DNA from: Christiangramia sp.
Lineage (GTDB): Bacteria; Bacteroidota; Bacteroidia; Flavobacteriales; Flavobacteriaceae
Assembly: GCF_029937855.1 (NCBI RefSeq)
Contig: NZ_JAPYPC010000037.1
Span: 1-33,301 of the forward strand
DNA: 33,301 nt
Reading direction: 5' to 3'
Part shown: positions 2,957-26,510 of the stretch, one piece after another
How the letters are laid out: each line of letters starts with the position of its first letter
Numbering within the stretch: position 1 is the stretch's first letter
Notes under the pieces: model-generated
Databases searched by the model: none
Seen by the model: only the letters and a program-made list of their open reading frames with translations
What the model was told of the DNA's origin: nothing
Program-made: the position numbers and the translations under genes

Positions 2957-2973
2957 TTTAGATTGATTCTAAA
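2957..2973. promoter_or_regulatory. inverted-repeat operator candidate (iron/DtxR-type box), copy 1
   Basis: TTTAGATTGATTCTAAA: perfect 6-bp arms TTTAGA/TCTAAA around a 5-base centre, 19 bases before the AraC ATG. It differs at a single base from the copy before feoA (26494-26510) and shares its arms with the copy between the TonB receptor and DtxR genes (21885-21900). TTTAG...CTAAA arms resemble known DtxR/MntR boxes. Its place downstream of the -7 box suits repression. Confidence 0.6.
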
Positions 2974-2992
2974 TAATTAAAAATCTGGTTTC

Positions 2993-3883
2993 ATGGAAGA
3001 TCGATTAAAAAATATCGCTGTAAGTATCTCTGAAGAGATAAAAATCGAGGATGGATTTTATATACTAAAGTTTCAAAACGATACTTCTAACGTTAAAATT
3101 ATGTCCCGGGATATAGATAATAGCTTTATCCAGTTTCATTTTAATGTGAAGGGAAACAGTAAATTTTTGTTCAACAATGGTAATTACGAATTGCCGCTCC
3201 TGGAAGAAAACTCCTTATTGCTTTATAATCCTCAGCGGGACCTGCCATTGAATGTTTCTTTAGAATCTGAGTCCTGGCTTGTTTCACTGGTAATTTCGAT
3301 CAAAAAATTTCATGCCTTGTTTTCTCAGGAAGCAGATTATATCACCTTTTTAAGTTCAGATAATAAGGATAAGAAATATTATAAGGATGCACCGGTTTCT
3401 CCGTCTATGGCCGTAGTGCTGAACCAGCTAATGAACTTTAATTTAACGCCAAGCATTAAAAACCTCTATTTTAAGGCGAAAGCGTTTGAATTATTAAGTC
3501 TGTATTTTAATAAGGCTGAAAATCCAGATCTGGAACAATGTCCTTTTTTAAGTGATGAAGAGAATATTAAAAAAATAAGAAAAGCAAAGGATATCGTTAT
3601 TTCCCGAATGGCTGAACCGCCTTCTCTTCAGGAACTTTCAGATGAAATAGGTCTAAGCCTTAAAAAGCTGAAAGAAGGTTTTAAACAGATTTATGGAGAT
3701 TCTGTGTATAGTTTTCTGTTTGATTATAAAATGGAATATGCGCGAAAATTGCTGGAAACCGGAGAATATAATGTGAATGAAGTCGGCCTGAAGGTAGGTT
3801 ATAGCACTGCCAGTCATTTTATAGCCGGCTTTAAAAAGAAATTTGGAACCACTCCAAAAAAATATACACTCTCAGTAAATTGA
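2993..3883 (+). CDS. AraC-family transcriptional regulator of the heme cluster
   Basis: 296 residues. The C-terminal part, about 195-296, is an AraC-type double helix-turn-helix: ASHFIAGFKKKFGTTPKKY is the typical end of the second HTH, and PSLQELSDEIGLSLKKLKEGF forms the first. The N-terminal 190 residues are a sensor or dimerisation region without a motif I can name. The gene is divergent from hemA and seven bases ahead of the ThuA-like gene, so the two are likely co-transcribed. From memory, AraC regulators often sit beside hemA in flavobacteria. Control of heme synthesis is inferred from position. An iron-box-like inverted repeat lies directly upstream. Confidence 0.9.
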   Translation: MEDRLKNIAVSISEEIKIEDGFYILKFQNDTSNVKIMSRDIDNSFIQFHFNVKGNSKFLFNNGNYELPLLEENSLLLYNPQRDLPLNVSLESESWLVSLVISIKKFHALFSQEADYITFLSSDNKDKKYYKDAPVSPSMAVVLNQLMNFNLTPSIKNLYFKAKAFELLSLYFNKAENPDLEQCPFLSDEENIKKIRKAKDIVISRMAEPPSLQELSDEIGLSLKKLKEGFKQIYGDSVYSFLFDYKMEYARKLLETGEYNVNEVGLKVGYSTASHFIAGFKKKFGTTPKKYTLSVN

Positions 3884-3890
3884 TCTAATT

Positions 3891-4604
3891 ATGCGGTACT
3901 TAATTGTTGTTTTTGTTCTTCTCTTTGGGGTGAAACTACAGTCTCAGGATAAACAGGTATTAATTTTTTCCAAAACCGAGGGCTTCAGGCATAATTCCAT
4001 TGAAACCGGTATTCAGGCAATACAGGAAATAGGCGACGCGCTCAATTTTAAAAGTATCACCAGCCAGGATAGCAGGTTTTTTACTGAAAATGATATGAGC
4101 AAGATAAACCTCGTGATATTCTTAAATACCACCGGCGATATTTTGAATATGGAAGAACAGACAGCATTTCAGAATTATATGGATAATGGTGGAAATTTCT
4201 TCGGAATACATGCCGCAGCAGATACAGAATTTAACTGGAACTGGTATGGGGATTTGGTGGGCGCTTATTTCAAAGGTCATCCAGAAATACAGGAAGCGGT
4301 CATCAATGTGAAAATGCCACAGCATCCTACAGTTGAACATTTAAGGGATAATACCTGGAAAAGAACCGATGAATGGTATAATTATAAGGATATTGCAAAC
4401 GGGCTTAATGTTCTTTTAAGCCTGGATGATACTTCTTATTCAGGAGGTGAAAACGGAGATTTTCATCCTATTGCCTGGTATCAGAATTATCGCGGTGGTG
4501 GAGTTTCAATTTATACCGGGGGAGGTCATACGATAGAATCTTATTCTGAACCGAATTTTCGGGAACATTTGCGCAAATGTATTGAATTTGCTTTGGGCAA
4601 CTAA
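3891..4604 (+). CDS. secreted ThuA-like domain protein
   Basis: 237 residues. The N-terminus (MRYLIVVFVLLFGVKLQSQ) is a signal peptide, so the product acts in the periplasm or outside. The rest matches the ThuA / trehalose-utilisation-like family, with a class I glutamine-amidotransferase-like fold: VLIFSKTEGFRHNSIETGI at the start, then GGNFFGIHAAADTEFNW and GGGVSIYTGGGHT. Family members occur in carbohydrate-related loci and their reaction is not established, so I give no substrate. It lies seven bases after the AraC regulator inside the heme cluster, an odd setting for a supposed sugar protein. Length is typical for a single-domain member. Confidence 0.85.
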   Translation: MRYLIVVFVLLFGVKLQSQDKQVLIFSKTEGFRHNSIETGIQAIQEIGDALNFKSITSQDSRFFTENDMSKINLVIFLNTTGDILNMEEQTAFQNYMDNGGNFFGIHAAADTEFNWNWYGDLVGAYFKGHPEIQEAVINVKMPQHPTVEHLRDNTWKRTDEWYNYKDIANGLNVLLSLDDTSYSGGENGDFHPIAWYQNYRGGGVSIYTGGGHTIESYSEPNFREHLRKCIEFALGN

Positions 4605-4690
4605 GCCTTATCAAATCATAGAAAACTCCAATTGAAAAGTGAAGAGTAGAAGTAGAGAGAATATTATTTTTGAGCTGAAAAAGAAAAATT

Positions 4691-5725
4691 ATGAGTAAAG
4701 GTGTACTGCTCGTCAACCTTGGGTCTCCAGATAGTACCGACCCAAAAGATGTAAAAAGATATCTTGGTGAATTTTTAATGGATGAACGGGTGATAGACGT
4801 ACCGCTCTGGGCCCGGACACTTTTGGTAAAAGGAATCGTCTTAAATACCCGACCAAAAAAATCGGCTGAAGCTTATCAAAAAATATGGTGGGAAGAAGGC
4901 TCTCCATTAATCGTACTTTCAGAAAGATTACAGGCGAAAATAGACGATCAAACCTCGGTTCCAATTTCGCTGGCAATGCGTTATGGAAAACCTGGTATTA
5001 AACAGGGAATGCAGGAATTGCACGATCAGGGAATAGATGAGGTATTGCTCTTTCCATTATACCCGCAATTTGCCATGGCAACTACAGAAACCATACTGGT
5101 GTTGGCCGAGGAACTTAGAAAGGAACATTTTCCCAATATGAGCTTTACTACCGTTCCACCTTTTTATAATCATTCAGATTATATAAGAACTCTGGCAAAT
5201 AGTATTTCAGAATCCTTACAGGATAAGGAATATGAGCATATTCTTTTTTCTTATCACGGGGTGCCTGAACGGCATATTAGAAAAAGTGACATCACCAACT
5301 CACATTGTAAAATTGACGGCTCCTGTTGCCAGACTGCCTCTACAGCACATCAATTTTGTTATCGTCACCAATGTTATGAAACCACCAGGTTGGTTGCTGA
5401 ATATCTGGAATTAAAACCGAATACCTACAGCGTTTCCTTTCAATCCCGACTTGGTTTCGACCCATGGTTAAAGCCTTATACAGACCGTACGATAGAAAGG
5501 TTTGGAAAACAGGGAATGAAGAAGCTCGCAGTGGTAACTCCGGCTTTTGTATCTGACTGCCTGGAGACACTGGAGGAAATAGCAATGGAAGGAGAAGAGA
5601 TCTTTCATGAAGTGGGAGGTGAGAAATTTACCGTAGTTCCCTGTTTAAATGACAGGGAGGAATGGGTAAAAGTCCTTTCCCGATGGATTGACGAATGGGC
5701 ACATCAAAAGTCTGTTGAAGCTTAA
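4691..5725 (+). CDS. hemH: ferrochelatase
   Basis: 344 residues, full length. It inserts ferrous iron into protoporphyrin (or coproporphyrin) as a late heme step. Catalytic His189 lies in LFSYHGVPERH, and Glu292 in CLETLEEI corresponds to the conserved active-site glutamate. The N-terminus (GVLLVNLGSPDS) is typical. Residues 206-228 hold five cysteines (206, 212, 213, 223, 228), a possible iron-sulfur or metal site; [2Fe-2S] clusters are known in some bacterial ferrochelatases. The stop overlaps the MATE gene start by one base, so the two are coupled. A weak -7-like TATTTTTG occurs at 4665-4672 without a -33 element. Confidence 0.96.
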   Translation: MSKGVLLVNLGSPDSTDPKDVKRYLGEFLMDERVIDVPLWARTLLVKGIVLNTRPKKSAEAYQKIWWEEGSPLIVLSERLQAKIDDQTSVPISLAMRYGKPGIKQGMQELHDQGIDEVLLFPLYPQFAMATTETILVLAEELRKEHFPNMSFTTVPPFYNHSDYIRTLANSISESLQDKEYEHILFSYHGVPERHIRKSDITNSHCKIDGSCCQTASTAHQFCYRHQCYETTRLVAEYLELKPNTYSVSFQSRLGFDPWLKPYTDRTIERFGKQGMKKLAVVTPAFVSDCLETLEEIAMEGEEIFHEVGGEKFTVVPCLNDREEWVKVLSRWIDEWAHQKSVEA

Positions 5726-7065
5726 TGGCTCGTAAGAATTCAAGAGAACTGGGAGAAAAACCCATTGGTAAACTTTTGATACAACAAGCGCTTCCAGCTT
5801 CGGTAGGAATTCTTGTAATGTCGCTGAATGTTCTGGTAGATACTATTTTCGTTGGGAATTGGATTGGACCCATTGCGATTGCGGCGATTAATGTGGTACT
5901 TCCGGTTTCATTCTTCATTGCAGCGCTTGGAATGGCCATAGGTATTGGTGGGTCATCTATAATTTCCAGGGCTTTAGGTGCTGAAGATCAGCCAAAAGCT
6001 TTAAAAACTTTTGGAAACCAGATAACTCTCACAATTTTACTGGCCATAGCGCTGGTAGTGCCAGGGCTTATTTTTGTGGACGATCTAATTCCTGCTTTTG
6101 GGGGCAAAGGGGAAATTTTTGATCCTGCCAAGATCTATTATATCATTGTTTTATGTGGAGTACCTTTTCTGGCTTTGGCCATGATGGGTAATAATGTGAT
6201 TCGGGCTGAAGGGAAACCACGTTTCGCGATGACAGCCATGATCATCCCTTCCGTTGTAAACCTAATTCTTGATTATATTCTTATCAACCAACTGAATATG
6301 GGCATGGAAGGTGCAGCTTTGGCTACCACTGCATCTTACTTATGCTGCCTTGGGTATATTATCTGGTTCTTTCTTTCTAAAAATTCAGAACTGAAGATTA
6401 GCGCAGCCCATTTTCGACTGGATTTTCCAATCTTAAAGGAAATTTCTTCTCTCGGAGTGGTTACTCTGGCACGGCAGGCGGTGGTAAGTGTCACTTATCT
6501 TTTAATGAACAATATCCTTTTTGATTTGGGCGGAGCAGAATTAGTGACCGTATATGCAATTATTGCCCGTATGCTTATGTTCGCTCTGTTTCCGGTATTA
6601 GGAGTGACCCAGGGTTTTCTGCCAATTGCCGGGTTTAATTATGGCGCGGGTAAATATCCCCGGGTTAGAAAAAGCATCAATACCGCTATTTTATATTCCT
6701 GTATTATGGGTTTAATGATCTTCCTTGGGATCATGTTTTTTGCACCGGGTATCGTCAGAATTTTTACTTCTGAAGCTTCAATAATAGAACAAACACCCTC
6801 AGCAATGCGCTGGGTATTTGCTGCGATTCCCATTGTGGCAGTTCAGCTTATTGGTGCAGCATATTTTCAGGCTATAGGAAAAGCGGTTCCCGCATTCCTG
6901 CTTACATTATCCAGGCAGGGTTTTATTTTTATTCCGTTGATTTTAATTTTACCCATTTACTATGGGGAAATTGGGGTATGGATTTCTTTTCCAATAGCCG
7001 ATGTTCTTAGTACTATAGTGACGGCCTTTTTTTTGAATAGGGAGATAGTAAAAACTCTTAAATAA
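5725..7065 (+). CDS. MATE-family multidrug/metabolite efflux transporter
   Basis: 446 residues, very hydrophobic, with about twelve membrane segments arranged as two similar halves. The early stretch IGKLLIQQALPASVGILVMSLNVLVDTIFVGNW and the following GGSSIISRALGAEDQPKA are typical of the MATE family, which exports cationic compounds using a sodium or proton gradient. The start codon shares one base with the hemH stop (TAATG), so translation is probably coupled. A link to porphyrin handling is suggested only by this position; the substrate cannot be read from the sequence. Confidence 0.93.
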   Translation: MARKNSRELGEKPIGKLLIQQALPASVGILVMSLNVLVDTIFVGNWIGPIAIAAINVVLPVSFFIAALGMAIGIGGSSIISRALGAEDQPKALKTFGNQITLTILLAIALVVPGLIFVDDLIPAFGGKGEIFDPAKIYYIIVLCGVPFLALAMMGNNVIRAEGKPRFAMTAMIIPSVVNLILDYILINQLNMGMEGAALATTASYLCCLGYIIWFFLSKNSELKISAAHFRLDFPILKEISSLGVVTLARQAVVSVTYLLMNNILFDLGGAELVTVYAIIARMLMFALFPVLGVTQGFLPIAGFNYGAGKYPRVRKSINTAILYSCIMGLMIFLGIMFFAPGIVRIFTSEASIIEQTPSAMRWVFAAIPIVAVQLIGAAYFQAIGKAVPAFLLTLSRQGFIFIPLILILPIYYGEIGVWISFPIADVLSTIVTAFFLNREIVKTLK

Positions 7066-7125
7066 GCCGGTATTTTAAAATTCACTTAAATCCTTATCTT
7101 TAAAGCCAATCAAACCTGAATTTCT

Positions 7126-10100
7126 ATGAATAAAATTGTACTTCAGATAAGCATTTTTATATGCTTTTTACTTAGCGGAATTTTTACCGAACATGCTTTT
7201 GCTCAGAACTATGATGAGAAATTATATGATGCCCTGGAATATCGATTGATAGGTCCGTTTCGTGGTGGAAGAAGTGCTGCAGTAACTGGTGTTCCCGGGG
7301 AGCCAAATCTTTATTATTTTGGAGCTGCCGGTGGAGGTGTATGGAAAACTGAAAATGGCGGAAGAAGCTGGGAAAATATTTCTGATGGATTTTTTGGTGG
7401 TTCCATAGGTGCGATTGAAGTAGCCAAAGATGATCCCAATGTGATCTATGTAGGCGGTGGAGAAAAGACGGTTAGAGGGAATGTTTCTTCTGGCTACGGA
7501 ATCTGGAAAACGGAAGATGCCGGAAAGACATGGCAAAAAGCGGGATTAGAAAAAAGTCGGCACGTATCAAGGATAGCTACACATCCTAAAGATTATAATA
7601 CAGCTTATGCAGCGGTGCTTGGTAATATTTATAAACCTACGGAAGAACGTGGGGTTTACAAAACGACCGATGGTGGAAAGAACTGGGAAAAAGTGCTTTT
7701 TTCGAATGATCAGTCAGGGGCAGTAGATCTAATCATGGATCCTAATAATCCAAGGATTTTATATGCGTCTACCTGGAATGTTCAAAGAACTCCCTATAGC
7801 TTAAGCAGTGGAGGAGAGGGTTCAGCCCTTTGGAAAAGTACCGATAGCGGAGAAACGTGGAATGAAATTTCTAAAAATAAAGGTTTTCCTCAGGATACTT
7901 TAGGAATTATTGGGGTTACAGTTTCACCGGCAAACAGCGAACGGGTGTGGGCTATTGTTGAAAATAAGGAAAATGGAGGTGTATATAGAAGTGATGATGG
8001 AGGGGAAACCTGGGATCATATAAACGATGACCGAAGCCTGAGACAACGTGCATGGTACTATACCAGAATATATGCCGATTCCAGGGATGAAGATGTAGTG
8101 TATGTATTAAATGTGAGCTATCATAAAAGTACCGATGGAGGTAGAACTTTTGAATCTGATAGGGCGCCACATGGAGACCATCATGACCTCTGGATTGCGC
8201 CGGAAGATCCGCAGCGGATGATCATGGGAGACGATGGTGGAGCCCAGGTAACTTATGATGCAGGGGAAACCTGGAGTACTTATCACAACCAGCCAACGGC
8301 CCAGTTTTATAGAGTGACTACAGATAATGCATTTCCGTATCGTATTTATGCGGCACAGCAGGACAACTCTACGGTTCGAATTCCTCACAGAACTGAAGGC
8401 GGTAATATTGATGAAAATGACTGGGAATCAACCGCAGGAGGTGAAAGTGCCCATATAGCAGTAGATCCTGAAAATAGTGATATCGTTTACGGAGGTAGTT
8501 ATGATGGGTTCTTAACCCGCTATAATCACGAAACAGGAACGGTGCGAAGTGTAAGCGTATGGCCAGATAATCCCATGGGCCATGGAGCAGAAGACCTGAA
8601 ATACAGGTTCCAATGGAATTTCCCTATATTTTTCTCTCCTCATAACCCGGATAAATTGTACACGGCTTCCAATCATCTTCATGTAACTACTAATGAAGGA
8701 GAGAGCTGGAAAGAAATAAGTCCTGATCTTACCCGTAACGATAAATCCAAACAGAAATCTTCGGGTGGTCCTATCACCCAGGATAATACATCTGTAGAAT
8801 ATTATAGTACGATCTTCGCTGCTGCCGAATCTCCCGGGACTCCGGGCTTATTATGGACGGGTAGTGATGACGGCCTGATCCATGTATCAAAAGATGCTGG
8901 TGAAACCTGGCATGATGTAACTCCCAAGGGAATGCCGGAGTGGATGATGATCAACAGCGTGGAACCCTCTTCATTTGATCCCGGAACTGCCTATGTAGCA
9001 GGAACACGATATAAGTTAGGAGATTTTACTCCATATCTTTATAAAACAACCAATTATGGTGAAACCTGGAAAAAAATAACCAATGGAATCCCGGAGGAGC
9101 ATTTTACCCGGGTGTTAAGGGAAGACCCAAAACAACAAGGCTTATTATATGCAGGAACAGAAACTGGAATGTATATTTCTTTTGATGATGGTGCAAACTG
9201 GAAACCTTTTCAGTTGAATCTGCCGATAGTTCCCATTACAGATCTCGCTATTAAAGATAATAACCTAATCGTAGCGACTCAGGGAAGAAGCCTGTGGATC
9301 CTTGATGATTTGTCCTTAATACATCAGTTATCTGAAGTTGAAAAAAAGGAAAACATACTTTTTAAGCCGAAAGACAGCTACAGGATGGGTGGTAGTTCCT
9401 CTAAATCACAAACAGCCGGCACCAATCATCCTTCCGGTGTCGTTACTTATTTTTATCTGAAGGATCCTGAAGAGAAGAAAGTTAAAATAAGTTATCTGGA
9501 TGCCTCCAATGATACTATTCAAAGTTTTAGTACCGATGCTGAAAAGAATAAGCTGGAAGTAAGCGAGGGTGCAAATATGCATACCTGGAATATGCGTGGA
9601 GAAGGAGCTGAAAAACTTGATGGAATGATCCTGTGGTGGGCAAGTACCGATGCGCCACAAGCCGTTCCGGGAGATTACAAAGTAGTTTTGGAAATTGGCA
9701 ATGAAGTTTTAGCAGAGGAATTCAAAATTTTACCTGATGAAAATGCAGAAGCTGATATTACCGGAATGCAGCAACAATATGATTTCATTAGCAGTGTGAA
9801 TAAAACGGTGGATAAAGCACATAAATCCATCAGTAAAATGAGAAAAGTAGATGCACAACTAAAGGATTTTCAGAAGCAATATAAAGGAAATGAAAAAGTG
9901 GAACCGCTACTCGAAAAAGCAAAGAAACTCAGCGAGCAGCTTTCTGAAATTGAAAATGAATTATATCAGACTAAAAATAGAAGTAACCAGGATCCTTTGA
10001 ATTTTCCGATAAAACTTACGAATAAACTGGCACATTTAAACAGCCTGGTAGGAATGGACGATTTTCCACCTACCACACAGGATATTCAGGTAAAAAATGA

Positions 10101-10227: not shown

Positions 10228-10775
10228 TGGAATACTATAATTATATAAAAGCACTGCATTTGATCTTTGTGATCACCTGGTTTGCAGGTTTATTCTATAT
10301 TCCACGCCTCTTTATATATCATATTGAAGCAAATAATAAAGGGGAGCCGGAAAGGTCTATTTTGTTAAAGCAATTAAAACTGATGGCAAAACGGCTTTGG
10401 TTTATCATCACCTGGCCTTCAGCGGTACTGGCAAGTTTTTTTGCTTTTCTTCTGCTATTTTTGATTCCGGAATGGCTTCAGCAGCCATGGATGCACGTAA
10501 AACTCGGTTTTGTGGTATTGCTGTTTGCCTACCACATCAAATGTCATTTCATTTTTAAGCAGCTTCAGAAGGATGTCGTGAAATGGACCTCAAACCAAAT
10601 GAGGATCTGGAATGAAGGCTCTACCTTAATTCTTTTTTCAGTAATATTTCTGGTGATCGTGAGGGATGCGCTCAACTGGATATATGGTGTGCTTGGAATT
10701 TTCTTGCTGGGCATCATGCTTATGTTGGGAATTAAACTCTACAAAAGAATACGCGCTAAAAATCCAGATGCCTGA
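10227..10775 (+). CDS. hemJ: HemJ-type protoporphyrinogen IX oxidase
   Basis: 182 residues with four to five membrane segments. The start YYNYIKALHLIFVITWFAGL and then FYIPRLFIYHIEA match the HemJ (UPF0093) family, including the early conserved His11 and the arginine in PRLF. NEGSTLILFSVIFLVIVRD in the C-terminal part also fits. HemJ oxidises protoporphyrinogen IX to protoporphyrin IX in the membrane, the step feeding ferrochelatase. Its ATG overlaps the stop of the large BNR protein by one base, and the histidine kinase follows after 41 bases. The gene belongs to the same pathway as hemH and hemACD nearby, although a MATE gene and a large secreted-protein gene intervene. Confidence 0.9.
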   Translation: MEYYNYIKALHLIFVITWFAGLFYIPRLFIYHIEANNKGEPERSILLKQLKLMAKRLWFIITWPSAVLASFFAFLLLFLIPEWLQQPWMHVKLGFVVLLFAYHIKCHFIFKQLQKDVVKWTSNQMRIWNEGSTLILFSVIFLVIVRDALNWIYGVLGIFLLGIMLMLGIKLYKRIRAKNPDA

Positions 10776-17470: not shown

Positions 17471-17489
17471 AGCACAATATAAATCAGTA

Positions 17490-19015: not shown

Positions 19016-19483
19016 TTAAATTTTGATCAAAATTTTTAATTTCTCTGACGTGAGATACTCATAACTTTTTCTACGAACTTTAAACTCTTCATCAAGTACC
19101 AGGATCACGGGAAATGAAATTGGTTTCTCCTTGCGGTTTGCCAGCAGTAACGGGATTTGATGTATTCCGTTTCTCATCGTTTTAGCCTGTTCATTGGTGA
19201 AGGTCTGTCCATCAAATTCAATATCTTCAGTACTTTCAGCATTCATTTTAACCGCATAGTAATCATTATTTAAGGCGGAAACGATCTCTGAATCTTTAAA
19301 AGCGTGCTTTTCCATCTTTTTGCAATACACACACCAATCGGTATAGAAATATATCACTACAGGTTTTACCTCTTCTTTCAGTGACTCTTCCAGTTTTTCA
19401 AAACCTATCCAGTTGACCCCCCCCTCCTGGGCCTGAATTTTCGTGAATCCGATTAAAAAAAGAAAGACTATTAAATGTTTCAT
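19016..19483 (-). CDS. periplasmic thioredoxin-like protein paired with TonB receptor
   Basis: 155 residues. Signal peptide MKHLIVFLFLIGFTKIQAQ; the mature part has a thioredoxin fold with the redox motif W-C-V-Y-C (Cys51, Cys54) in YFYTDWCVYCKKMEKHAF and a cis-proline segment near SFPVILVLDEEF. It belongs with the thioredoxin-7/DUF255-like group found in the periplasm. It starts ten bases after the TonB receptor stop and is clearly co-transcribed with it. The receptor plug carries a Cys-x-x-Cys pair that this protein might keep reduced or oxidised; that partner relation is inference. Confidence 0.88.
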   Translation of the reverse strand: MKHLIVFLFLIGFTKIQAQEGGVNWIGFEKLEESLKEEVKPVVIYFYTDWCVYCKKMEKHAFKDSEIVSALNNDYYAVKMNAESTEDIEFDGQTFTNEQAKTMRNGIHQIPLLLANRKEKPISFPVILVLDEEFKVRRKSYEYLTSEKLKILIKI

Positions 19484-19493
19484 TGCTTAAGGT

Positions 19494-21851
19494 TTAATTG
19501 TGAAGATTTCCAAATTTAATTCCGAAGAAAAAAGTACGGGGCCTTGAAGGTCCATAGATGTAATCTGAATCTCGTGTAGGGCCCGAGTCAAAATCATCCT
19601 GATAAGCGTTGAACACATTCTGGACACCCGTACTTAGGTTGATGTGGAAATTCTCAGTAATATCTAAATGCTGAGTCAGTTTTAAGTTCATGTCCCAAAA
19701 AGTAGGAGATTCGCGCAGGTCTAAAAACCCATTAGGATTTATCACCCTTGGGATGGTCATTTTTCCAGTATAAGTTCCCGTAAGATCCAGGGTAAATCCT
19801 TCGAATGGTGCTGTATTAACATTTAAATACCCATAAAAATCTGGATTTCTTACAAATTCGCTAATCCTAATATCTTCTTCGGTGGTCGATGCGGGATCGG
19901 CTTCAAATAAAATTTGATCTTCCTTATATATTGATTGCTGATAGGTTCCTCCCAGTTGAAAGGTTAAGTCTGAAGAAGGGGAAACTCCAATTTCAAAATT
20001 TGTACCTGTTACATAAGCACCACTTCCGTTTCTAACTTCTTTCAGAATAGAGCCATTGGGAAGACTTGCACCGGTACTCACGGTGGTAAAGGGATTTTTT
20101 AATTCGGTATAAAAACCTTCCAGAAGAAAATCAGTTTGAAGTTTATTGATGCTCTTTGAATAATTGAAAGATGCGGTATAAGCATTAGAAAATTCTGTCT
20201 CAAGATCTTCGGAAAGAATCACGAATTGAGGTTCTCCACCAACAGATGATATATGCAGATCTTCATTAAATGCTTGTGGCGCTCTAAAACCACGGGCATA
20301 GCCTCCGCGAAACTGTAATTCCTCAGTAATATCATACAATAAAGTTATTCGCGGACTTAATACGGTTTCATCAATTTGCGATTCCCGTTGTATATCTTCC
20401 ACAGCATAATTTCCAGAAACATTGATGTGATCAAGCCTTGCGCCTATAAGCGCTGTAAACTTCTCCACAGGCTTCCATTCATATTGGGCAAAAGCAGCAT
20501 AAGAATTCACTGCTTGATCTATAAATCGTTGGTAACCTGAAATGTCATCTTCGGTATTGCTGTGATTATATTCTATTCCGGTAGTTAACACGTCCTCATT
20601 TTTAAAATTTCTGGTGAATTGAAAACCTCCTAATAGCGCCAAATCCTTAGTATTTCCGTAAGCGTTTGATGCTGAAGTACTATCCTGGGAAGTTCTGCCA
20701 CCACCAAGGCCTCCGTAATAACTTTTTCTGTCTGTATGTTGTCCTGAAACATATACAGAGTAATTATTGGTCATTTCGGTATTTGAGAAATCATAAGTGA
20801 GTCCGCCAATAAAAGTGTTATGGTCTAATTCTTCGGTAATATCGGTTAAATGCGGAGCCAGTTCCAGGCGATCGCCACCTCTTCTATATTCCTTGAGCGC
20901 TGTAAGGTCCAGTGTAATTTTACTTAATTCGTTAGGTTTTAGAAAGGCTTTAGCGCCCAGGGTATTATTGGTAAGTTCAGTTATTTCCGTAAATCCGTCT
21001 CCGTTAGCATCAAATGCAGAACGTTCGCGATTCATCCCGTAGATAGTAACCCCGCTATTTAGATCTTCAGTAACCACCGAACCTGCGAAATTCAGAGTGC
21101 GATCTGGAATTTCACCATTTATAAGAGAAAGATTACTGGCAATATTCCAGGTATTCAATACCGGCTCTTTAGTGATAATATTTACGGTCCCTGCAATAGC
21201 ATTAGACCCAAATAGGGCTGATCCACCACTACGAACAACCTCTACTCTATCCAGAATAGAAGTAGGAATTTGTTCTAACCCATAAACGCTATTCAAAGCA
21301 CTAAAGACAGACCGGCTATTAATCAAGACCTGAGTGTAACTTCCGTCAAGTCCGTTTAACCTCACCTGGGTAAATCCACAATTCTGGCAATTGGTTTCCA
21401 CCCGCACCCCAGGCTGAAAATTCAAAGTCTCAGCTACTGAAACTGATTGAGTGGCATTAAAAAGTTTGGAATTAAGAACATTTACGATAACAGGGGCGTC
21501 TTTCAAATTTATTCTGTTTCTAGTGGCACTAATCACCACCTGATCCAGCCCCAAAGCATCTTCCTGCAATTCGATAATAAGTTTTTTATTCTCGTAATCA
21601 ACCGGGTTAATGGAAAGCTGTCGTGTTTTAAAACCTATCGCCTGGATATTAAGGTTCACTTTTTCTGCTTCTAACTGAATGGAAAATTCCCCCTGAAGAT
21701 TGGCACTTGTCCCCTGATTGGTACCTGAAACCGAAATATTCGCAAAAGGAACCGGTTTTTGTTCGTGCATCACCACGCCTTTTAAAGGTCCATTTTGAGC
21801 CCCAAGAGCTGTAATAAACAACATTAAACTTATCCTCAATAAATTCTTCAT
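19494..21851 (-). CDS. TonB-dependent outer-membrane receptor, probably for iron or heme
   Basis: 785 residues. Signal peptide at 1-19; a carboxypeptidase-regulatory-like beta-sandwich at about 21-98 (LKGVVMHEQKPVPFANISV); plug at about 110-235 with RVEVVRSGGSALFGSNAIAGTVNII; then a barrel ending in aromatic FFFGIKFGN. The plug contains NCQNCGFTQVRLNGLDG, with Cys155 and Cys158. It imports a TonB-energised ligand; the neighbouring DtxR regulator, the ZIP transporter and an iron-box-like operator argue for iron, manganese or heme. No SusD partner is present, so glycans are unlikely. Followed by a thioredoxin-like gene; the -7 box TACCTTTG is at 21868-21875. Confidence 0.92.
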   Translation of the reverse strand: MKNLLRISLMLFITALGAQNGPLKGVVMHEQKPVPFANISVSGTNQGTSANLQGEFSIQLEAEKVNLNIQAIGFKTRQLSINPVDYENKKLIIELQEDALGLDQVVISATRNRINLKDAPVIVNVLNSKLFNATQSVSVAETLNFQPGVRVETNCQNCGFTQVRLNGLDGSYTQVLINSRSVFSALNSVYGLEQIPTSILDRVEVVRSGGSALFGSNAIAGTVNIITKEPVLNTWNIASNLSLINGEIPDRTLNFAGSVVTEDLNSGVTIYGMNRERSAFDANGDGFTEITELTNNTLGAKAFLKPNELSKITLDLTALKEYRRGGDRLELAPHLTDITEELDHNTFIGGLTYDFSNTEMTNNYSVYVSGQHTDRKSYYGGLGGGRTSQDSTSASNAYGNTKDLALLGGFQFTRNFKNEDVLTTGIEYNHSNTEDDISGYQRFIDQAVNSYAAFAQYEWKPVEKFTALIGARLDHINVSGNYAVEDIQRESQIDETVLSPRITLLYDITEELQFRGGYARGFRAPQAFNEDLHISSVGGEPQFVILSEDLETEFSNAYTASFNYSKSINKLQTDFLLEGFYTELKNPFTTVSTGASLPNGSILKEVRNGSGAYVTGTNFEIGVSPSSDLTFQLGGTYQQSIYKEDQILFEADPASTTEEDIRISEFVRNPDFYGYLNVNTAPFEGFTLDLTGTYTGKMTIPRVINPNGFLDLRESPTFWDMNLKLTQHLDITENFHINLSTGVQNVFNAYQDDFDSGPTRDSDYIYGPSRPRTFFFGIKFGNLHN

Positions 21852-21867
21852 TCAAATTAATTTTAAG

Positions 21868-21875
21868 CAAAGGTA
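21868..21875 (-). promoter_or_regulatory. -7 box of the TonB receptor promoter
   Basis: The minus strand reads TACCTTTG (TAnnTTTG), 16 bases before the receptor ATG at 21851. The inverted repeat at 21885-21900 covers the stretch just upstream of this box, where a bound repressor would block RNA polymerase. A TTG at 21901-21903 is spaced slightly wide (25 bases). Confidence 0.55.
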
Positions 21876-21884
21876 TAAAAATAA

Positions 21885-21900
21885 TTTAGACTCATCTAAA
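21885..21900. promoter_or_regulatory. inverted-repeat operator candidate (iron/DtxR-type box), copy 2
   Basis: TTTAGACTCATCTAAA has perfect 6-bp arms around a 4-base centre, in the 103-base region between the divergent TonB receptor and DtxR genes. It lies between the receptor's -7 box and the DtxR -33 element, so one bound dimer could control both. The arms equal those of 2957-2973, whose centre is one base longer. Confidence 0.65.
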
Positions 21901-21903
21901 CAA

Positions 21904-21934
21904 TTGATTAATTGAATTAAAAAATGTATTTTTG
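21904..21934 (+). promoter_or_regulatory. promoter of the DtxR-ZIP operon
   Basis: TTG at 21904-21906, a 20-base spacer and TATTTTTG at 21927-21934 match the Bacteroidota promoter pattern well. The ATG at 21955 follows after 20 bases, giving a very short leader. The inverted repeat at 21885-21900 abuts the -33 element. Confidence 0.6.
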
Positions 21935-21954
21935 ACCTAATTAAAATTAATTTC

Positions 21955-22611
21955 ATGTTTAGCTTATCTGAAGAAAACTACTTAAAGGCCATTTTTCATT
22001 TACAATCAGCCTACAAAAGTGGAGTAAGTACGAACGCGCTTGCAGAGGAAATGCAAACCAAGGCATCTTCGGTAACAGATATGGTGAAGAGGCTTTCAGA
22101 CAAAGACCTGGTGAACTATAAAAAGTACCAGGGGGTTAAATTAAGTGAAGCCGGAAAAAACGCAGCCATTGAGGTGATTAGAAAACACCGACTTTGGGAA
22201 GTTTTTCTGGTAGATAAGCTTGGTTTTAACTGGGATGAAGTTCATGAAGTAGCAGAACAACTGGAACATATAAAATCTGAAAAACTTACCAATCAGCTGG
22301 ATAAGTTCCTGGAATATCCTAAAAGGGATCCTCATGGGGATCCTATCCCAGATTCTCAGGGCAATTTTAGTGTTGCAAACCGTGTCCTCTTATCAGAACT
22401 TAAAAAAGGGGAAACCGGTATTTGTGTTGGGGTGAAAGATTCTTCTGCAGAATTTCTCCAATATCTAGATAAAAACAAAATTTCCCTGGGCAAGGAAATA
22501 TATATTCTGGAAAAGGAAGATTTTGACCAGTCTATGCTTATAAAAATGGATGGAAATGAACTAAGGATCTCCAACCAAATATCAACTAACCTATTTATTA
22601 AAACAATTTAA
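21955..22611 (+). CDS. DtxR/MntR-family metal-dependent regulator
   Basis: 218 residues. Residues 1-65 form the winged helix (MFSLSEENYLKAIFHLQSA, then SVTDMVKRLSDKDLVNYKKYQGVKL). The metal-binding and dimerisation domain follows (about 70-140: RKHRLWEVFLVDKLGFNWDEVHEVAEQLEHI). From about 140 to the end is a FeoA/SH3-like domain, so this is the three-domain IdeR/DtxR architecture. These proteins repress metal uptake when loaded with Fe(II) or Mn(II); which metal acts here cannot be told. It is divergent from the TonB receptor and one base ahead of the ZIP gene, and is probably autoregulated through the 21885-21900 repeat. Confidence 0.94.
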   Translation: MFSLSEENYLKAIFHLQSAYKSGVSTNALAEEMQTKASSVTDMVKRLSDKDLVNYKKYQGVKLSEAGKNAAIEVIRKHRLWEVFLVDKLGFNWDEVHEVAEQLEHIKSEKLTNQLDKFLEYPKRDPHGDPIPDSQGNFSVANRVLLSELKKGETGICVGVKDSSAEFLQYLDKNKISLGKEIYILEKEDFDQSMLIKMDGNELRISNQISTNLFIKTI

Positions 22612-22612
22612 A

Positions 22613-23434
22613 ATGAACAATATTATAGACTTTTTTGAGTCATTGGATCCCGTTTATGCAGCTTTTCTTGCTACTTTGTTTACCTGGGGACTTACCGCTT
22701 TGGGAGCTTCACTGGTATTTCTTTTTAAAGGAATGAACCGGGCATTTTTTGATGGAATGTTAGGTTTTACCGGGGGTGTAATGGTGGCAGCCAGTTTCTG
22801 GAGCCTGCTCGCTCCGGGGATTGAAATGAGTCCCGGGGAAGGTTTTGAAAAAGTAGTGCCCGCTTTGGTGGGATTTGGGTTAGGTGCTTTTTTTATATTC
22901 GGTCTTGATAAAATTCTTCCGCATTTACACGTGAATTTTAAAATGAGCGAATCTGAAGGGATCAAAACACCCTGGCATAAATCAGTTTTATTGACCTTGG
23001 CCATTACCCTTCACAATATTCCTGAAGGGCTTGCCGTAGGAGTGCTGTTTGGAGGTGTTGCTGCCGGTTTTGAAGGAGCCAGTATTGGTGGTGCCGTGGC
23101 GCTTGCCCTTGGAATTGGATTACAGAACTTTCCAGAAGGATTTGCAGTTGCCATGCCGCTACGAAGACAGGGCCTTAGCCGATGGAAAAGTTTTAATTAC
23201 GGTCAAATGTCGGCAATCGTAGAACCTATTGCTGCAGTATTGGGGGCATGGGCAGTATTGACCTTTGAACCTATTTTACCTTACGCATTATGTTTTGCAG
23301 CAGGAGCTATGATCTTTGTGGTGGTAGAAGAAGTAGTGCCGGAAGCCCAGCAGGGAAATTTCACCGATATTTCCACGATGGGATTCATCGGAGGATTTAT
23401 GATTATGATGACCTTAGACGTTGGCCTGTCCTAG
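22613..23434 (+). CDS. ZIP-family divalent metal transporter
   Basis: 273 residues with about eight membrane segments. Two ZIP signature helices are clear: LAITLHNIPEGLAVGVLFGG and LGIGLQNFPEGFAVAMPLRR, with the HN-PE and QN-PE residues that line the transport site. ZIP proteins bring zinc, iron or manganese into the cytoplasm. It starts one base after the DtxR stop, a tight regulator-transporter pair, so its expression should be metal-controlled. The final substrate is open; iron or manganese is favoured by the context. Confidence 0.93.
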   Translation: MNNIIDFFESLDPVYAAFLATLFTWGLTALGASLVFLFKGMNRAFFDGMLGFTGGVMVAASFWSLLAPGIEMSPGEGFEKVVPALVGFGLGAFFIFGLDKILPHLHVNFKMSESEGIKTPWHKSVLLTLAITLHNIPEGLAVGVLFGGVAAGFEGASIGGAVALALGIGLQNFPEGFAVAMPLRRQGLSRWKSFNYGQMSAIVEPIAAVLGAWAVLTFEPILPYALCFAAGAMIFVVVEEVVPEAQQGNFTDISTMGFIGGFMIMMTLDVGLS

Positions 23435-23464
23435 AACCTTTTGCAACGTATGGATTTTTAATTC

Positions 23465-23481
23465 GTCTTTATTATAAAGAC
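23465..23481. promoter_or_regulatory. 17-bp inverted repeat before the small secreted protein gene
   Basis: GTCTTTATTATAAAGAC has perfect 8-bp arms around a single T, four bases before the ATG at 23486. It is followed by CTTTTATG. It could be an operator, a weak AT-rich terminator/attenuator for the DtxR-ZIP transcript, or an RNA hairpin near the start codon. Confidence 0.4.
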
Positions 23482-23485
23482 TTTT

Positions 23486-23974
23486 ATGAAAATAAACTTG
23501 CTTTTTCTAGCTCTGTTTCTCGCAGTTTTGATGCGGGGTCAGGAATCTGAAACTACAGAAAATAATACCTGGAATGTTCAGTTTTGTATAGGAGACAGCC
23601 TGCGGTTAGGTGAAAAATCAATTAAATTCAAGAAATTAATTTCAGATTCCAGATGTCCAAAAGGAGATGCCATAACCTGTATTTGGGCCGGTGAGGTTAT
23701 AGTACTGATGGAGTTCTACCAAAATGGAAAATTACAGGGTGCAAAGCAAATTACTGGTTCCAATATTTTGCTGGAAGATATTTATATAGATGGAAAAATA
23801 GTTGAAAAGAAAATACCTCTCAAATCTAACATTTCAATATCAGAATTTTTTGATGAAGAAAATCTGGCGATCAAAGCTTTGGTTGTATCACCATATCCCA
23901 CGGCAGGTAGAAAGATATCTTCAGAAGAATATAGACTTGATTTAATTATTTCAGAAAAAGTAAAAACAGATTAA
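23486..23974 (+). CDS. small secreted protein of unknown function
   Basis: 162 residues. The first 19 (MKINLLFLALFLAVLMRGQ) look like a signal peptide, so it is exported. Three cysteines lie early in the mature part: Cys34, and Cys57 and Cys65 in DSRCPKGDAITCIWAGEV. I have seen the DSRCP...CxWAG pattern in other small secreted proteins of unknown role; it probably forms a disulfide loop in a beta-rich domain. No catalytic motif is seen. It is 51 bases after the ZIP gene and may share its transcript. Its stop overlaps the stop of the convergent Cys-rich Feo gene by sharing TTAA at 23971-23974. Confidence 0.75.
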   Translation: MKINLLFLALFLAVLMRGQESETTENNTWNVQFCIGDSLRLGEKSIKFKKLISDSRCPKGDAITCIWAGEVIVLMEFYQNGKLQGAKQITGSNILLEDIYIDGKIVEKKIPLKSNISISEFFDEENLAIKALVVSPYPTAGRKISSEEYRLDLIISEKVKTD

Positions 23975-24120
23975 TCGCCACAACCGCAGTCTGAAACCCC
24001 GCAAGAGCCAGATTTCTTTTTGCCTCCTAAAAATGCCGGCTTCCAGACGAATTTGGTAATAATATAGCCTACAGCGATTAGAAAAGTTATAAAGACCAAT
24101 ATTTCCTGTAAAAGTTCCAT
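23971..24120 (-). CDS. FeoB-associated Cys-rich membrane miniprotein
   Basis: 49 residues from ATG at 24120 (MELLQEILVFITFLIAVGYIITKFVWKP). One membrane helix at about 6-24 is followed by a basic stretch and a cysteine tail, SCGVSDCGCGD (Cys40, Cys45, Cys47). This is the form of the small FeoB-associated Cys-rich proteins that follow feoB in Bacteroidota; they may bind iron or redox-tune FeoB, but this is not established. The frame is open upstream into feoB, but that longer start would overlap feoB and has no support. It starts 32 bases after the feoB stop. Confidence 0.88.
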   Translation of the reverse strand: MELLQEILVFITFLIAVGYIITKFVWKPAFLGGKKKSGSCGVSDCGCGD

Positions 24121-24152
24121 ATAATCTACGTCGTTTTTAATTCTATTCCTTA

Positions 24153-26255
24153 CTATTTTAAAAGTTGAAATGCTATAAGTGCAACTACATAAGCAAAGCC
24201 ACTCATTATAATTAATTGCAATAATGGCCATTTCCAGGTGTTGGTTTCCCGTTTAACGATAGCAAGCGTACTCATACATTGCAGGGCAAATGCATAGAAT
24301 AATAATAGACTTACCCCGCTGGCAAAAGTAAACAGGGGACCCCCCAATACCGGGTTCGTTTCCGCAGCCATTCTATTTTTTATCGTTTCTTCTTCGTCAC
24401 TTCCAACGCTGTATATCGTTGCCAGCGTACCTACAAATACTTCCCTCGCAGCAAATGAACTAATAATGGCAATTCCTATTTTCCAGTCATAGCCTAATGG
24501 AGCAACTGCCGGCTCAATTCCTCTTCCCATAATCCCGATATAGGAATTTTTTAATTTAAAAGAAGCGATCTCCTCGTCTAATTCGCTTTGGGTTATAGAA
24601 CTTTCAGAATCATATTTAGAAGTAACGATTTCTTCAGCATTCTCAAAATTATCTCCTGGGCCATAACTCGCCAGAACCCATAAGATCACAGAAATTGCCA
24701 GGATTATTTTACCGGCTCCAAAAACAAAGGATTTTGTTTTTTCAACTACATTGATCAGTACGTTTTTGATCATGGGTAGTTTGTAATTGGGCATTTCAAT
24801 TACAAAATAGCTCTTCGCCTGTGTTTTCATGATCTTGTTAAGGATCCATGCTGAAAAAATAGCCATTCCAAAACCTAATAGATACAGGATCATAAGAGTA
24901 ATCCCCTGTAGATTCAGGCCTAAATAGGTTTCATCTGGGATTACCAGAGCAATAATGATGAGATATACCGGTAATCTTGCTGAACAGGTAGTAAAAGGAA
25001 CTACCAGAATGGTGATTAAACGCTCTTTCCAATGTTCAATATTTCTAGTGGCCATAACTGCCGGAATCGCACAGGCTGTACCGGAAACCAGCGGAACTAC
25101 ACTTTTCCCGCTTAAGCCAAAACGGCGCATGATCCTGTCCATTAAAAAAACCACCCTACTCATATATCCGGATTCTTCCAGAATAGAGATGAAGAGAAAG
25201 AGAAAGGCAATTTGTGGAATAAAGATCACGATCCCGCCCAGGCCAGGAACAATTCCCTCGGCTATCAAACTGGTAAAGGCTCCATTAGGAAAGGTGTTTT
25301 TCGTCCATTCGCTTAGCGCGGCAAAAGCCGTATCGATCATATCCATTGGATAGCTGGACCAGCTATAGATTGCCTGGAAGATCAATAATAAGATTCCGAA
25401 GAAAATAACATAGCCCCAAACTTTGTGCGTTAAAGTCCTGTCTAATCTTGATCTAAGGTCGGTAGCGGCATTTTTATCAACCACCATGGTTTCACGTAAA
25501 ACCCCATTGATAAACTGGTAACGTAAAATCGTTTCCTTTTGCTGAAGTCTTTTAAGGTCACTGACCGATTTTGTATTAAAATCTGAGTTATTCTTTAATT
25601 CACCGCGATTAATATTCCCAAAGTTGACATCCTGAGTGATAACCAGCCATAATTTGTATAAAGACTGATTTGGGAATGCTTTTCTCAGATTTCCAAAATA
25701 CTCTGGATCTATGATGGAGGCATTTACGCAAGGATCTACCGGAAGATGGCGATAGTTTAAAATAAGTTCTTTTAGGTGATCAATCCCCATGCGTTTACGG
25801 GCGCTAACCAGGGCGATTTTTGTTTTAAGCCGTTCCTCCAGCAGTTCTGTATCAAGGCTAATTCCCTTTCTATCCATCCTGTCGGCCATATTTATTGCCA
25901 AGATAGTTGGAATACCAAGATCTTTAATCTGGGTAAATAATAGTAGGTTTCTTTTAAGATTTTCCACATCGCTTACTACCACAGCAACATCAGGGAAATC
26001 TTTGTCATTTTTATTCAGGAGTAGTTCAATTACTACATTCTCGTCAACAGAAGAAGCATTCAGGCTATAAGTTCCGGGAAGGTCTAGGATATGCGCTTTT
26101 AAGCCCCGGGGAAGCTTACAAATTCCTTCTTTTTTTTCAACGGTAATCCCAGGATAGTTACCAACCTTTTGGTTAAGGCCTGTTAATTGATTAAATACAG
26201 AAGTCTTACCGGTATTGGGGTTTCCAATTAAAGCAACATTAATTTGCTTACCCAT
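24153..26255 (-). CDS. feoB: ferrous iron transport GTPase
   Basis: 700 residues, full length. The N-terminal GTPase has the P-loop GNPNTGKTS (11-19), YPGITVEKKEG as switch I, DLPGTYSL as G3 and NMAD as G4. A helical GDI domain follows, then two Gate-type membrane units (VPGLGGIVIFIPQIAFLFLFISILEESGYMSRV, and GTACAIPAVMATR) to the C-terminus. It takes up Fe(II) across the inner membrane. It starts one base after the feoA stop, and the Cys-rich partner follows. Transcription should depend on the feoA promoter, which carries an iron-box-like repeat. Confidence 0.97.
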   Translation of the reverse strand: MGKQINVALIGNPNTGKTSVFNQLTGLNQKVGNYPGITVEKKEGICKLPRGLKAHILDLPGTYSLNASSVDENVVIELLLNKNDKDFPDVAVVVSDVENLKRNLLLFTQIKDLGIPTILAINMADRMDRKGISLDTELLEERLKTKIALVSARKRMGIDHLKELILNYRHLPVDPCVNASIIDPEYFGNLRKAFPNQSLYKLWLVITQDVNFGNINRGELKNNSDFNTKSVSDLKRLQQKETILRYQFINGVLRETMVVDKNAATDLRSRLDRTLTHKVWGYVIFFGILLLIFQAIYSWSSYPMDMIDTAFAALSEWTKNTFPNGAFTSLIAEGIVPGLGGIVIFIPQIAFLFLFISILEESGYMSRVVFLMDRIMRRFGLSGKSVVPLVSGTACAIPAVMATRNIEHWKERLITILVVPFTTCSARLPVYLIIIALVIPDETYLGLNLQGITLMILYLLGFGMAIFSAWILNKIMKTQAKSYFVIEMPNYKLPMIKNVLINVVEKTKSFVFGAGKIILAISVILWVLASYGPGDNFENAEEIVTSKYDSESSITQSELDEEIASFKLKNSYIGIMGRGIEPAVAPLGYDWKIGIAIISSFAAREVFVGTLATIYSVGSDEEETIKNRMAAETNPVLGGPLFTFASGVSLLLFYAFALQCMSTLAIVKRETNTWKWPLLQLIIMSGFAYVVALIAFQLLK

Positions 26256-26256
26256 A

Positions 26257-26487
26257 TTAGCCTATTAATTCAATTTCTATTAGCAGTGCTGTTTCCTTCC
26301 TTATTGCCAGATGACTCCCATTTATATTAAGGTACATAGGATCATGGAATGGGGCGGTTTGAACGAGCTCTACTTCGTTTCCGGGAAGGCAACCCATTTC
26401 AAGAAGCTTTAGAGGTACCATATCTGCAGAGAATTCCTTGATAATTCCACGCTGACCTCTTTTTAAATTAGCTACCGTTACCTTCAC
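26257..26487 (-). CDS. feoA: ferrous iron transport protein A
   Basis: 76 residues, an SH3-like FeoA domain (VANLKRGQRGIIKEF, then KLLEMGCLPGNEVELVQTAPFHDPMYLNINGSHLAIRKETA). It starts with GTG at 26487; I see no ATG nearby that keeps the conserved start. FeoA assists FeoB in Fe(II) uptake. The spacing to feoB is one base, so they are translationally coupled. The promoter directly upstream has a strong -33/-7 pair with an operator-like inverted repeat between the -7 box and the start codon. Confidence 0.94.
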   Translation of the reverse strand: MKVTVANLKRGQRGIIKEFSADMVPLKLLEMGCLPGNEVELVQTAPFHDPMYLNINGSHLAIRKETALLIEIELIG

Positions 26488-26493
26488 TTTTTA

Positions 26494-26510
26494 TTTAGAT
26501 TGATTTTAAA
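26494..26510. promoter_or_regulatory. inverted-repeat operator candidate (iron/DtxR-type box), copy 3
   Basis: TTTAGATTGATTTTAAA is identical at 16 of 17 positions to the copy before the AraC gene. It lies five bases downstream of the feoA -7 box, so it covers the predicted transcription start. The one change (C to T) breaks perfect symmetry of the right arm. A feoAB operator is the kind of site an iron repressor would use. Confidence 0.65.

Follow-up and report, generated by a model that had tools for sequence, protein, structure and literature searches.

Look-alike palindromes on a Christiangramia contig point to separate iron and manganese regulons and to a candidate outer-membrane manganese receptor

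Here we report the analysis of three inverted repeats that lie before genes of heme and metal traffic in Christiangramia sp. (Flavobacteriaceae; RefSeq assembly GCF_029937855.1), all of them on NZ_JAPYPC010000037.1, one whole contig of 33,301 bp (hereafter the window) of a 3.9-Mb genome. A preliminary description of this DNA had joined the three into a single iron regulon, bound and repressed by the DtxR-family protein of the window. The palindromes are instead two motifs, a 17-bp box with a central base (sites 1 and 3) and a 16-bp box (site 2), and we hold it very likely that they serve two regulons, whichever metal the DtxR protein senses. We further consider it probable that these are two metal regulons with look-alike operators, Fur acting at sites 1 and 3 and an MntR-type, Mn(II)-sensing DtxR protein at site 2.

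Two palindrome classes in one window

The repeats are present letter for letter at 2957-2973 (site 1), 21885-21900 (site 2) and 26494-26510 (site 3, minus strand), and sites 1 and 3 differ at a single base, as had been noted. Their location in promoters also holds for all three: site 1 precedes the AraC-family regulator gene that heads the heme cluster (2993-3883, plus strand; Pfam HTH_18), site 2 occupies the gap between a TonB-dependent receptor gene (minus strand) and the divergent dtxR gene (plus strand), and site 3 precedes feoA. The gap between the arms is 5 bp at sites 1 and 3 and 4 bp at site 2. Sites 1 and 3 are Fur-type boxes that end 19 bp before araC and 6 bp before the feoA start, respectively, and that in their 19-bp form span 2956-2974 and 26493-26511; site 2, TTTAGAYNNRTCTAAA, is a 16-bp operator of DtxR/MntR type.

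Weight matrices made without this genome tell the two classes apart. The DtxR matrix was built from 50 dtxR sites and the Fur matrix from 29 feoA and 29 araC sites, the latter including the best windows of two araC promoters that have no real box (L099 and L101). Site 1 scores 22.3 bits with the Fur matrix and -1.0 with the DtxR matrix, site 3 scores 29.4 and 1.6 bits, respectively, and site 2 scores 13.0 bits with the DtxR matrix and -0.3 with the Fur matrix, while the next-best places in the window reach 2.3 bits (DtxR matrix) and 6.3 bits (Fur matrix). One operator model therefore does not serve all three sites. The 13.0 bits of site 2 fall below the range of the sites from which the DtxR matrix was built (16.8-27.5 bits).

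With up to three mismatches allowed on both strands of the window, TTTAGATTGATTCTAAA has four matches against 0.64 expected, a number reached in none of 100 shuffles; the looser TTTAGANTNATNTAAA, with up to two mismatches, has eight against 5.48 expected, which is not above chance. The window had been thought to hold no comparable copy elsewhere, but an additional TTTAGA...TCTAAA pair, its arms 6 bp apart, falls within an open reading frame (ORF) at 29837-29854. Genome-wide enrichment of the motif did not appear either, plain palindrome counts being 10, 185 and 151 against 8, 173 and 155 in reversed controls. Because these totals resemble their controls, counts in this genome prove nothing, and plain counting was set aside; what gives the finding its weight is conservation at fixed places in relatives, rather than counts.

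Conservation of the two boxes in Flavobacteriaceae

Conservation was followed in 120 genomes of Flavobacteriaceae, one per genus and with the present genome among them, the promoter loci being the 30 best matches per search together with chosen further stretches. As had been anticipated for orthologous promoters, the boxes are kept at fixed places in relatives. Among the figures given below, the araC counts, one feoA box (L057), the 18-mer totals, the reversed control of the 16-bp sites, the categories of exact-site loci and the counts of CXXC motifs were made by hand.

The dtxR gene (21955-22611, plus strand) encodes a protein of 218 aa with a C-terminal FeoA domain, which we read as an MntR-type repressor; its domains (Pfam Fe_dep_repress, Fe_dep_repr_C and FeoA; PF01325, PF02742, PF04023) exceed the Pfam cut-offs and place it in the DtxR/MntR family. 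Its closest named relatives come from Christiangramia/Gramella and are 94% identical at best, in a listing that may leave out the genome itself. In the main DtxR clade, to which the protein belongs (clade I), the 16-bp box with at most two arm mismatches precedes dtxR at all 51 loci (own included; 30 best matches, 20 of the next 22, and G014), compared with 6.0% in dinucleotide shuffles, and 21 of these boxes are perfect, 22 have one mismatch and eight have two. Seven of 11 additional clade I copies, which are mainly second or lower-ranking ones, have the box as well.

Flavobacteriaceae have at least three DtxR clades, and the operator tends to change with the protein. At 19 loci the DtxR protein is only 28-34% identical to that of the window (clade II) and its recognition helix reads ISNAAATDM by consensus, compared with TK[AP]SSVTDM in clade I; all 19 promoters carry an exact TTTAAG-N4-CTTAAA and none carries the clade I box. 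Of these 19 genomes, 18 retain the feoA box (five in a first feoA set and 13 of 14 in a further set), and of the 18 whose araC promoter could be scored, 16 retain the araC box (10/10 and 6/8 in the first and further sets). Among seven copies of a third clade (L272-L278), five (L272, L274, L275, L277 and L278) have an exact GTTAG-N6-CTAAC, which occurs in none of the 51 clade I and none of the 19 clade II promoters. In three genomes (G025, G030 and G077) one paralog has an operator of clade I and another an operator of clade III, the clade I site of G077 having three mismatches, and G033 holds one paralog with a clade II and one with a clade III operator; G041 and G080 have a clade III copy without the clade III operator. 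Since operators differ before paralogs of one genome, it is with the protein, rather than with the genome, that the operator tends to vary. In several genomes (G014:C1:1044519, G119:C49:6468 and others) dtxR directly adjoins a longer DtxR-like frame of ~340-350 aa.

Exact 16-bp sites number 84 over the 120 genomes against 17 in the reversed control. Of 29 such loci fetched from relatives, 11 are dtxR promoters (among them L142, which a likely false ORF overlaps), 16 lie within ORFs and two are otherwise intergenic, so that the DtxR regulon looks small and local. A wider regulon cannot be claimed, as most exact sites outside dtxR promoters fall within ORFs. Twelve near-matches of the box in this genome (L041-L052) gave a similar result, eight lying within ORFs and the four intergenic ones (L042, L043, L048 and L050) having no clear manganese gene beside them. 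From sequence and conservation, we conclude that site 2 is very probably the operator through which the DtxR protein acts on dtxR itself and on the divergent receptor gene. To that extent the binding proposed earlier is supported. For sites 1 and 3 it is not supported, as these fit Fur by sequence, position and conservation, and the feoA box stays the same in genomes with an altered DtxR and dtxR operator.

Promoter elements lie on both sides of site 2. The -7 box of dtxR, TATTTTTG, lies at 21927-21934 (plus strand), 26 bp after the palindrome, and that of the receptor gene, TACCTTTG, at 21868-21875 (minus strand), 9 bp from it, which puts site 2 upstream of the receptor -7 box, at the predicted position of the -33 spacer. 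In 26 of the 80 named loci described below, a -7 box follows the palindrome by 24-26 bp, and 21 of the 51 clade I loci have CAAANNTA separated from it by 7-9 bp. A receptor match on the opposite strand lies upstream of dtxR at 34 of the 51 clade I loci and at none of the 19 clade II loci; this count and that of the -7 spacing were recounted by script.

A set of named loci from independent genomes, the best 80 of 509 DtxR matches, was scored for any site with at most two mismatches within 200 bp. Before dtxR, 43 of the 80 have such a site, of which three (L334, L360 and L368) look fortuitous. The remaining loci are mostly from Flavobacterium, and 39 Flavobacterium loci have an NRAMP gene in the same orientation as dtxR and no more than 900 bp upstream of it; by sequence, the 16-bp box precedes mntH in all 39. 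In one of them (L342; Nramp, 453 bits) an ORF stands between the NRAMP gene and dtxR. Counting boxes before dtxR, mntH or the best receptor hit, 79 of the 80 loci have one (the exception is L314), and so do 69 of the 71 receptor hits, so that conservation held in independent genomes and the box moves with mntH and with the receptor gene. Two side observations concern these Flavobacterium loci: at L369, the gene immediately upstream of mntH and dtxR (4563-4949) belongs to the FUR family (28.7 bits), and in many loci the stretch just before dtxR is packed with imperfect short repeats resembling GCTAAG/TCTGAG or CAAAGGT (L326, L334, L347, L363, L369 and others; ~6900-7000).

The 17-bp box precedes feoA and araC. 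In the window, site 3 serves feoA (26257-26487, minus strand; Pfam FeoA; GTG start at 26487, end placed by eye), which is followed by feoB (24153-26255, minus strand; Pfam FeoB_N/Gate/FeoB_C, TIGR00437); the feoA -7 box, TACTTTTG (TAnnTTTG), lies at 26516-26523, 5 bp before the 17-bp box, and by eye this layout recurs in the feoA loci of relatives. The box, TTTAAAATCAATCTAAATAA, is almost invariant, being found with at most two arm mismatches in all 30 fetched feoB loci (own included; L057 by eye). In 24 further loci, 21 are within one mismatch of TTTARAATNAATCTAAA; the box of L261 and of L262 is more symmetric, and the best match of L245 lies elsewhere. Among the named loci the check on independent genomes held in part: 28 of 34 have the box with at most two mismatches, and the misses are Flavobacterium loci with TCTTAATTCAATCTAAATAA, plus one with TGTTTATTCAATCTAAATAA, which retain the right half. 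In G001, G011, G018, G026 and other genomes, feoB has a longer frame (735-786 aa) in which the match breaks near residue 555, as if by an insertion before the C-terminal part.

Of 30 fetched araC promoters (own included), 27 have a 17-bp site at positions -33 to -36 with at most one arm mismatch, mostly TTTAGAAYNAATCTAAATAA, and 11 of 15 further promoters have the box, a sixteenth (L253) being cut by a contig end. The regulator itself is found in 114 of the 120 genera (own included; E<=1e-30), with one match each. Over the 120 genomes there are 111 exact copies of the 18-mer TTTARAATNAATCTAAAT, compared with five in the reversed control, and this genome has three of them (control 0): before feoA, before a gene for a DUF4856 protein (C57:47551; L094, L048) and before a second TonB receptor (C62:88794; L095, L397). 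The latter two genes are iron-uptake candidates. The DUF4856 promoter additionally has a 16-bp site with one mismatch, 67 bp further on.

This genome encodes a Fur protein at C34:40758-41210 (FUR, 96.6 bits), whose nearest solved chains are Fur proteins, besides three weaker FUR-family genes. Fur is found in 118 of the 120 genera (own included; E<=1e-30), mostly at 72-96% identity, G083 and G103 having no match. In Riemerella anatipestifer, gel-shift assays on fragments of four promoters support a 19-bp Fur box, ATTTAGAATTATTCTAAAT, with ATTTAAAATTATTCTAAAT as a listed site (PMC5609570), and feoAB is Fur-regulated with a Fur box in its promoter (PMC10434265); here and below, cited papers are reported from the portions of their text available to us. 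Based on sequence, position and conservation, we assign sites 1 and 3 to Fur, to which the 17-bp box most likely belongs, with Fe(II)-dependent binding predicted.

The araC promoter may have a second input beyond Fur. Another palindrome, TGATAATTATCA, lies in the gap between hemA and araC at 2876-2887, and in relatives it reads TGATAAATRTCA; TGAT-N4-RTCA is present in 20 of 29 araC promoters of relatives and overlaps the -7 box in several. The form in relatives fits an FNR/CRP-like site, but the GATAAT-type Fur box (PMC7976709) would also allow a classical Fur-like reading of TGATAATTATCA, and for this reason the palindrome was not used as evidence.

The metal sensed by DtxR and the CQNC receptor

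At the metal-ligand positions, the DtxR protein has Asn (MntR Asp8/DtxR Met10), Glu (MntR Glu99/DtxR Cys102), Glu and His, and its nearest solved relatives are 5zr4 (a metal-dependent regulator), ScaR and SloR. Manganese is the more likely metal over iron, judging from the Glu/Glu/His ligands, the kinship with ScaR and SloR, the boxed mntH upstream of dtxR in Flavobacterium and the CQNC-type receptor. The strongest pointer is an analogy: MntR of Stenotrophomonas maltophilia regulates a TonB receptor whose plug carries CQNC, together with a periplasmic thioredoxin-fold protein, pTFP (PMC13217887). Within Bacteroidota, PgMntR of Porphyromonas gingivalis binds the promoter of a manganese transporter operon and not the iron transporter promoter FB1p (PMC4805248). 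The name iron regulon given to all three sites would fit the Fur sites before feoA and araC, but probably not the DtxR branch. As the protein lies far below the cut-off of the curated NCBIfam MntR family, we do not file it there and read it only as working like MntR.

The receptor encoded beside site 2 (19494-21851, minus strand; 785 aa; Pfam Plug and barrel) is a candidate manganese receptor with a comparable motif. Its only two cysteines form a CQNC at residues 155-158 (codons at 21378-21389), and directly downstream lies the gene of a thioredoxin-fold protein with CVYC (19016-19483, minus strand; Pfam thioredoxin-like; signal-like N-terminus by eye). This genome has 40 plug matches; among the 30 that were fetched, only the window receptor has a plug CXXC, or indeed any plug cysteine, and only it has an exact 16-bp box, two others (L394 and L395) having one-mismatch sites further upstream. 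In clade I loci, 32 of 34 divergent receptor-size ORFs (own included) carry a CXXC at residues 152-173, and among receptor hits in the named loci 60 of 71 have one, eight do not and three could not be read through (L300, L309 and L367). Cys155, Cys158 and His533 are invariant across 21 chosen, aligned receptors; since CXXC receptors were preferred in the choice, the invariance of the two cysteines follows in part from it. On the other side of site 2, the gene of a ZIP-family metal importer directly follows dtxR (22613-23434, plus strand; Pfam Zip, below the NCBIfam ZupT cut-off), and a ZIP gene is downstream of dtxR in 38 of the 80 named loci.

We suggest the following mechanism. When manganese suffices, Mn(II)-bound dimers of the DtxR protein, an MntR-type repressor sensing Mn(II), would occupy the 16-bp operator TTTAGAYNNRTCTAAA; placed just upstream of the receptor -7 box and upstream of the dtxR promoter core, they would block the receptor-thioredoxin operon and also silence dtxR-zip. 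In manganese shortage both operons would be expressed, the receptor would carry manganese, free or chelated, across the outer membrane with TonB energy, the thioredoxin-fold partner would maintain its CXXC in the reduced state and ZIP would import the metal to the cytoplasm. Independently, under plentiful iron, Fe(II)-Fur would shut feoAB from site 3, just after the feoA -7 box, and the AraC regulator from site 1 in the araC leader, a control that could extend through AraC to the heme cluster. The extra central base pair would distinguish the nearly identical arms of Fur and DtxR boxes.

The fullest form of this proposal is that the receptor at 19494-21851 is the outer-membrane manganese receptor of Flavobacteriaceae, with a thioredoxin partner and a DtxR-family manganese sensor whose operator takes at least three clade-specific forms (TTTAGA..TCTAAA, TTTAAG..CTTAAA and GTTAG..CTAAC), beside a nearly fixed Fur box, one central base pair separating the iron and manganese regulons. 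We regard it as evenly poised.

Several observations weigh against the assignment of Fur and an MntR-type protein to the two boxes and against manganese as the metal of the latter. Concerning the metal, the Asn at the Asp8/Met10 position replaces a ligand that is Asp in some clade I relatives (among the six commonest forms), the score against NCBIfam MntR NF047407 is 160.9 bits at a cut-off of 350, the ZIP importer is not manganese-specific, the two NRAMP genes of this genome (L230 and L231) have no 16-bp site upstream, and receptors beside the box lack the CXXC in L012, L015, L308, L327 and six Psychroflexus loci. Concerning the match of protein and operator, two further clade I copies have three mismatches (L282 and L283) and two have no box (L288 and L289), a clade II-type site with at most two mismatches occurs in three of the 51 clade I promoters, two clade III copies and an outlier have no clade operator (L273 and L276; L280), and L279 (G096), with a clade I-like helix, has a two-mismatch clade I site at -27; moreover, few evolutionary switches may lie behind the clade contrasts. 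Concerning Fur, four araC promoters have no box (L099, L101, L269 and L270) and four a weak one (L123, L250, L254 and L117, the last counted among the 27 yet unlike the others), and G083, a genome that is 88% complete, has a feoA-type 18-mer but no Fur match at E<=1e-30. For Riemerella, a different putative Fur box, the E. coli-like GATAATGATAATCATTATC, is also given (PMC7976709), in conflict with PMC5609570, and the available text of PMC10434265 leaves unstated whether the box before feoAB has the form of ATTTAGAATTATTCTAAAT or of GATAATGATAATCATTATC.

Alternative explanations and known systems

The idea that one DtxR regulon joins heme, receptor and feo genes under joint repression has in its favour that the TTTAGA arms are common to all three palindromes, all of which lie in metal-gene promoters of one window, and that feoB is near dtxR in many relatives. 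We consider it very improbable, because the gaps differ (4 against 5 bp), the matrices do not cross-score, the feoA box stays constant where DtxR and its own operator have changed, feoAB is under Fur in Riemerella (PMC10434265) and PgMntR fails to bind FB1p (PMC4805248). Partial cross-talk, in which both proteins read both boxes and the central base pair sets the preference, draws on the same near-identical half-sites and on the single inserted base that divides the classes in Flavobacteriaceae; the low scores of the window sites under the opposite matrix, and the near-fixed asymmetric TTTAAAATCAATCTAAATAA of feoA boxes in genomes with either DtxR clade, make it improbable. Chance palindromes in AT-rich intergenic DNA would account for plain-pattern genome counts that resemble their reversed controls here, but have next to no likelihood given fixed promoter positions across tens of genera and the exact-site totals of both classes over 120 genomes (84 against 17 and 111 against 5 in the reversed controls).

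It is also conceivable, though in our view unlikely, that there are two regulons of which the DtxR branch senses iron, or iron and manganese together, the receptor and ZIP forming a second iron system beside the Fur-controlled feoAB. DtxR and IdeR relatives sense iron, Asn stands in place of the manganese ligand Asp, and the reporter of the S. maltophilia CQNC module is active only when manganese and iron are both limiting (PMC13217887). Against this, Glu replaces Cys102 of DtxR, as in MntR, a boxed mntH lies upstream of dtxR, and ScaR and SloR are among the best solved relatives. A manganese-sensing DtxR protein beside Fur is thus the reading that we prefer.

Fur boxes and MntR operators are already known kinds of element. 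In the open-access literature we found no report of any DtxR/MntR operator in Flavobacteriaceae, the 16-bp one included, of its clade-specific switching or of a CQNC module in the family (the available text of PMC9478572 has no bearing on the sites), and, again in open-access papers only, no description of manganese crossing the outer membrane of Bacteroidota; for this phylum the window supplies a testable candidate manganese receptor with motif, partner and switch. The terms Bacteroidota, Flavobacter, Gramella and Sphingobacter are absent from the main text of PMC13217887, whose synteny figure names other orders; CQNC receptors are described there as sparse across diverse bacterial taxa, and its figures might include Bacteroidota. 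Recognition helix and operator match clade by clade, and some genomes hold paralogs that differ in code; this offers ready-made material for studying changes of DNA specificity among DtxR-family repressors, and also how two metal regulons stay apart despite near-identical operators. On a practical level, users annotating Flavobacteriaceae genomes should sort TTTAGA palindromes by gap length before calling a regulon.

Comparison with described systems shows both kinship and difference. Like the Riemerella Fur box, site 1 matches 16 and site 3 matches 15 of 19 positions of ATTTAGAATTATTCTAAAT (counted by hand), with the reservation that a second paper names a different box (PMC7976709). Unlike it, the feoA and araC boxes here lie near the start codon and hardly vary in their right half (mostly AATCTAAATAA); an araC or heme target is not mentioned in the available portions of the Riemerella papers (PMC5609570, PMC10434265). 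With the S. maltophilia module, the window shares a CQNC plug receptor, an adjacent CXXC thioredoxin-fold protein, a repressor gene alongside and an operator between promoter elements, whereas a ZIP gene after dtxR takes the place of an MntH neighbour and the box is 16 bp rather than 25 bp (PMC13217887). Receptors of relatives carry CQTC, CNVC, CNIC, CGVC and similar motifs besides the CQNC of S. maltophilia, and in two loci (L303 and L304) the thioredoxin partner has CAPC, as in that species. PgMntR is likewise a DtxR-family manganese regulator of Bacteroidota, but differs in having two FeoA domains, a Cys108 ligand and FB2 as manganese transporter, its binding having been located to a 385-bp fragment rather than a mapped operator (PMC4805248). 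With MntR, ScaR and SloR as with DtxR and IdeR, the protein described here has helix-turn-helix, metal-binding and FeoA domains in common, and its Glu, Glu and His ligands are those of MntR; it differs from them in the Asn at the Asp8/Met10 position, in the 16-bp operator TTTAGAYNNRTCTAAA, and in belonging to a set of three clades with three operators within one bacterial family.

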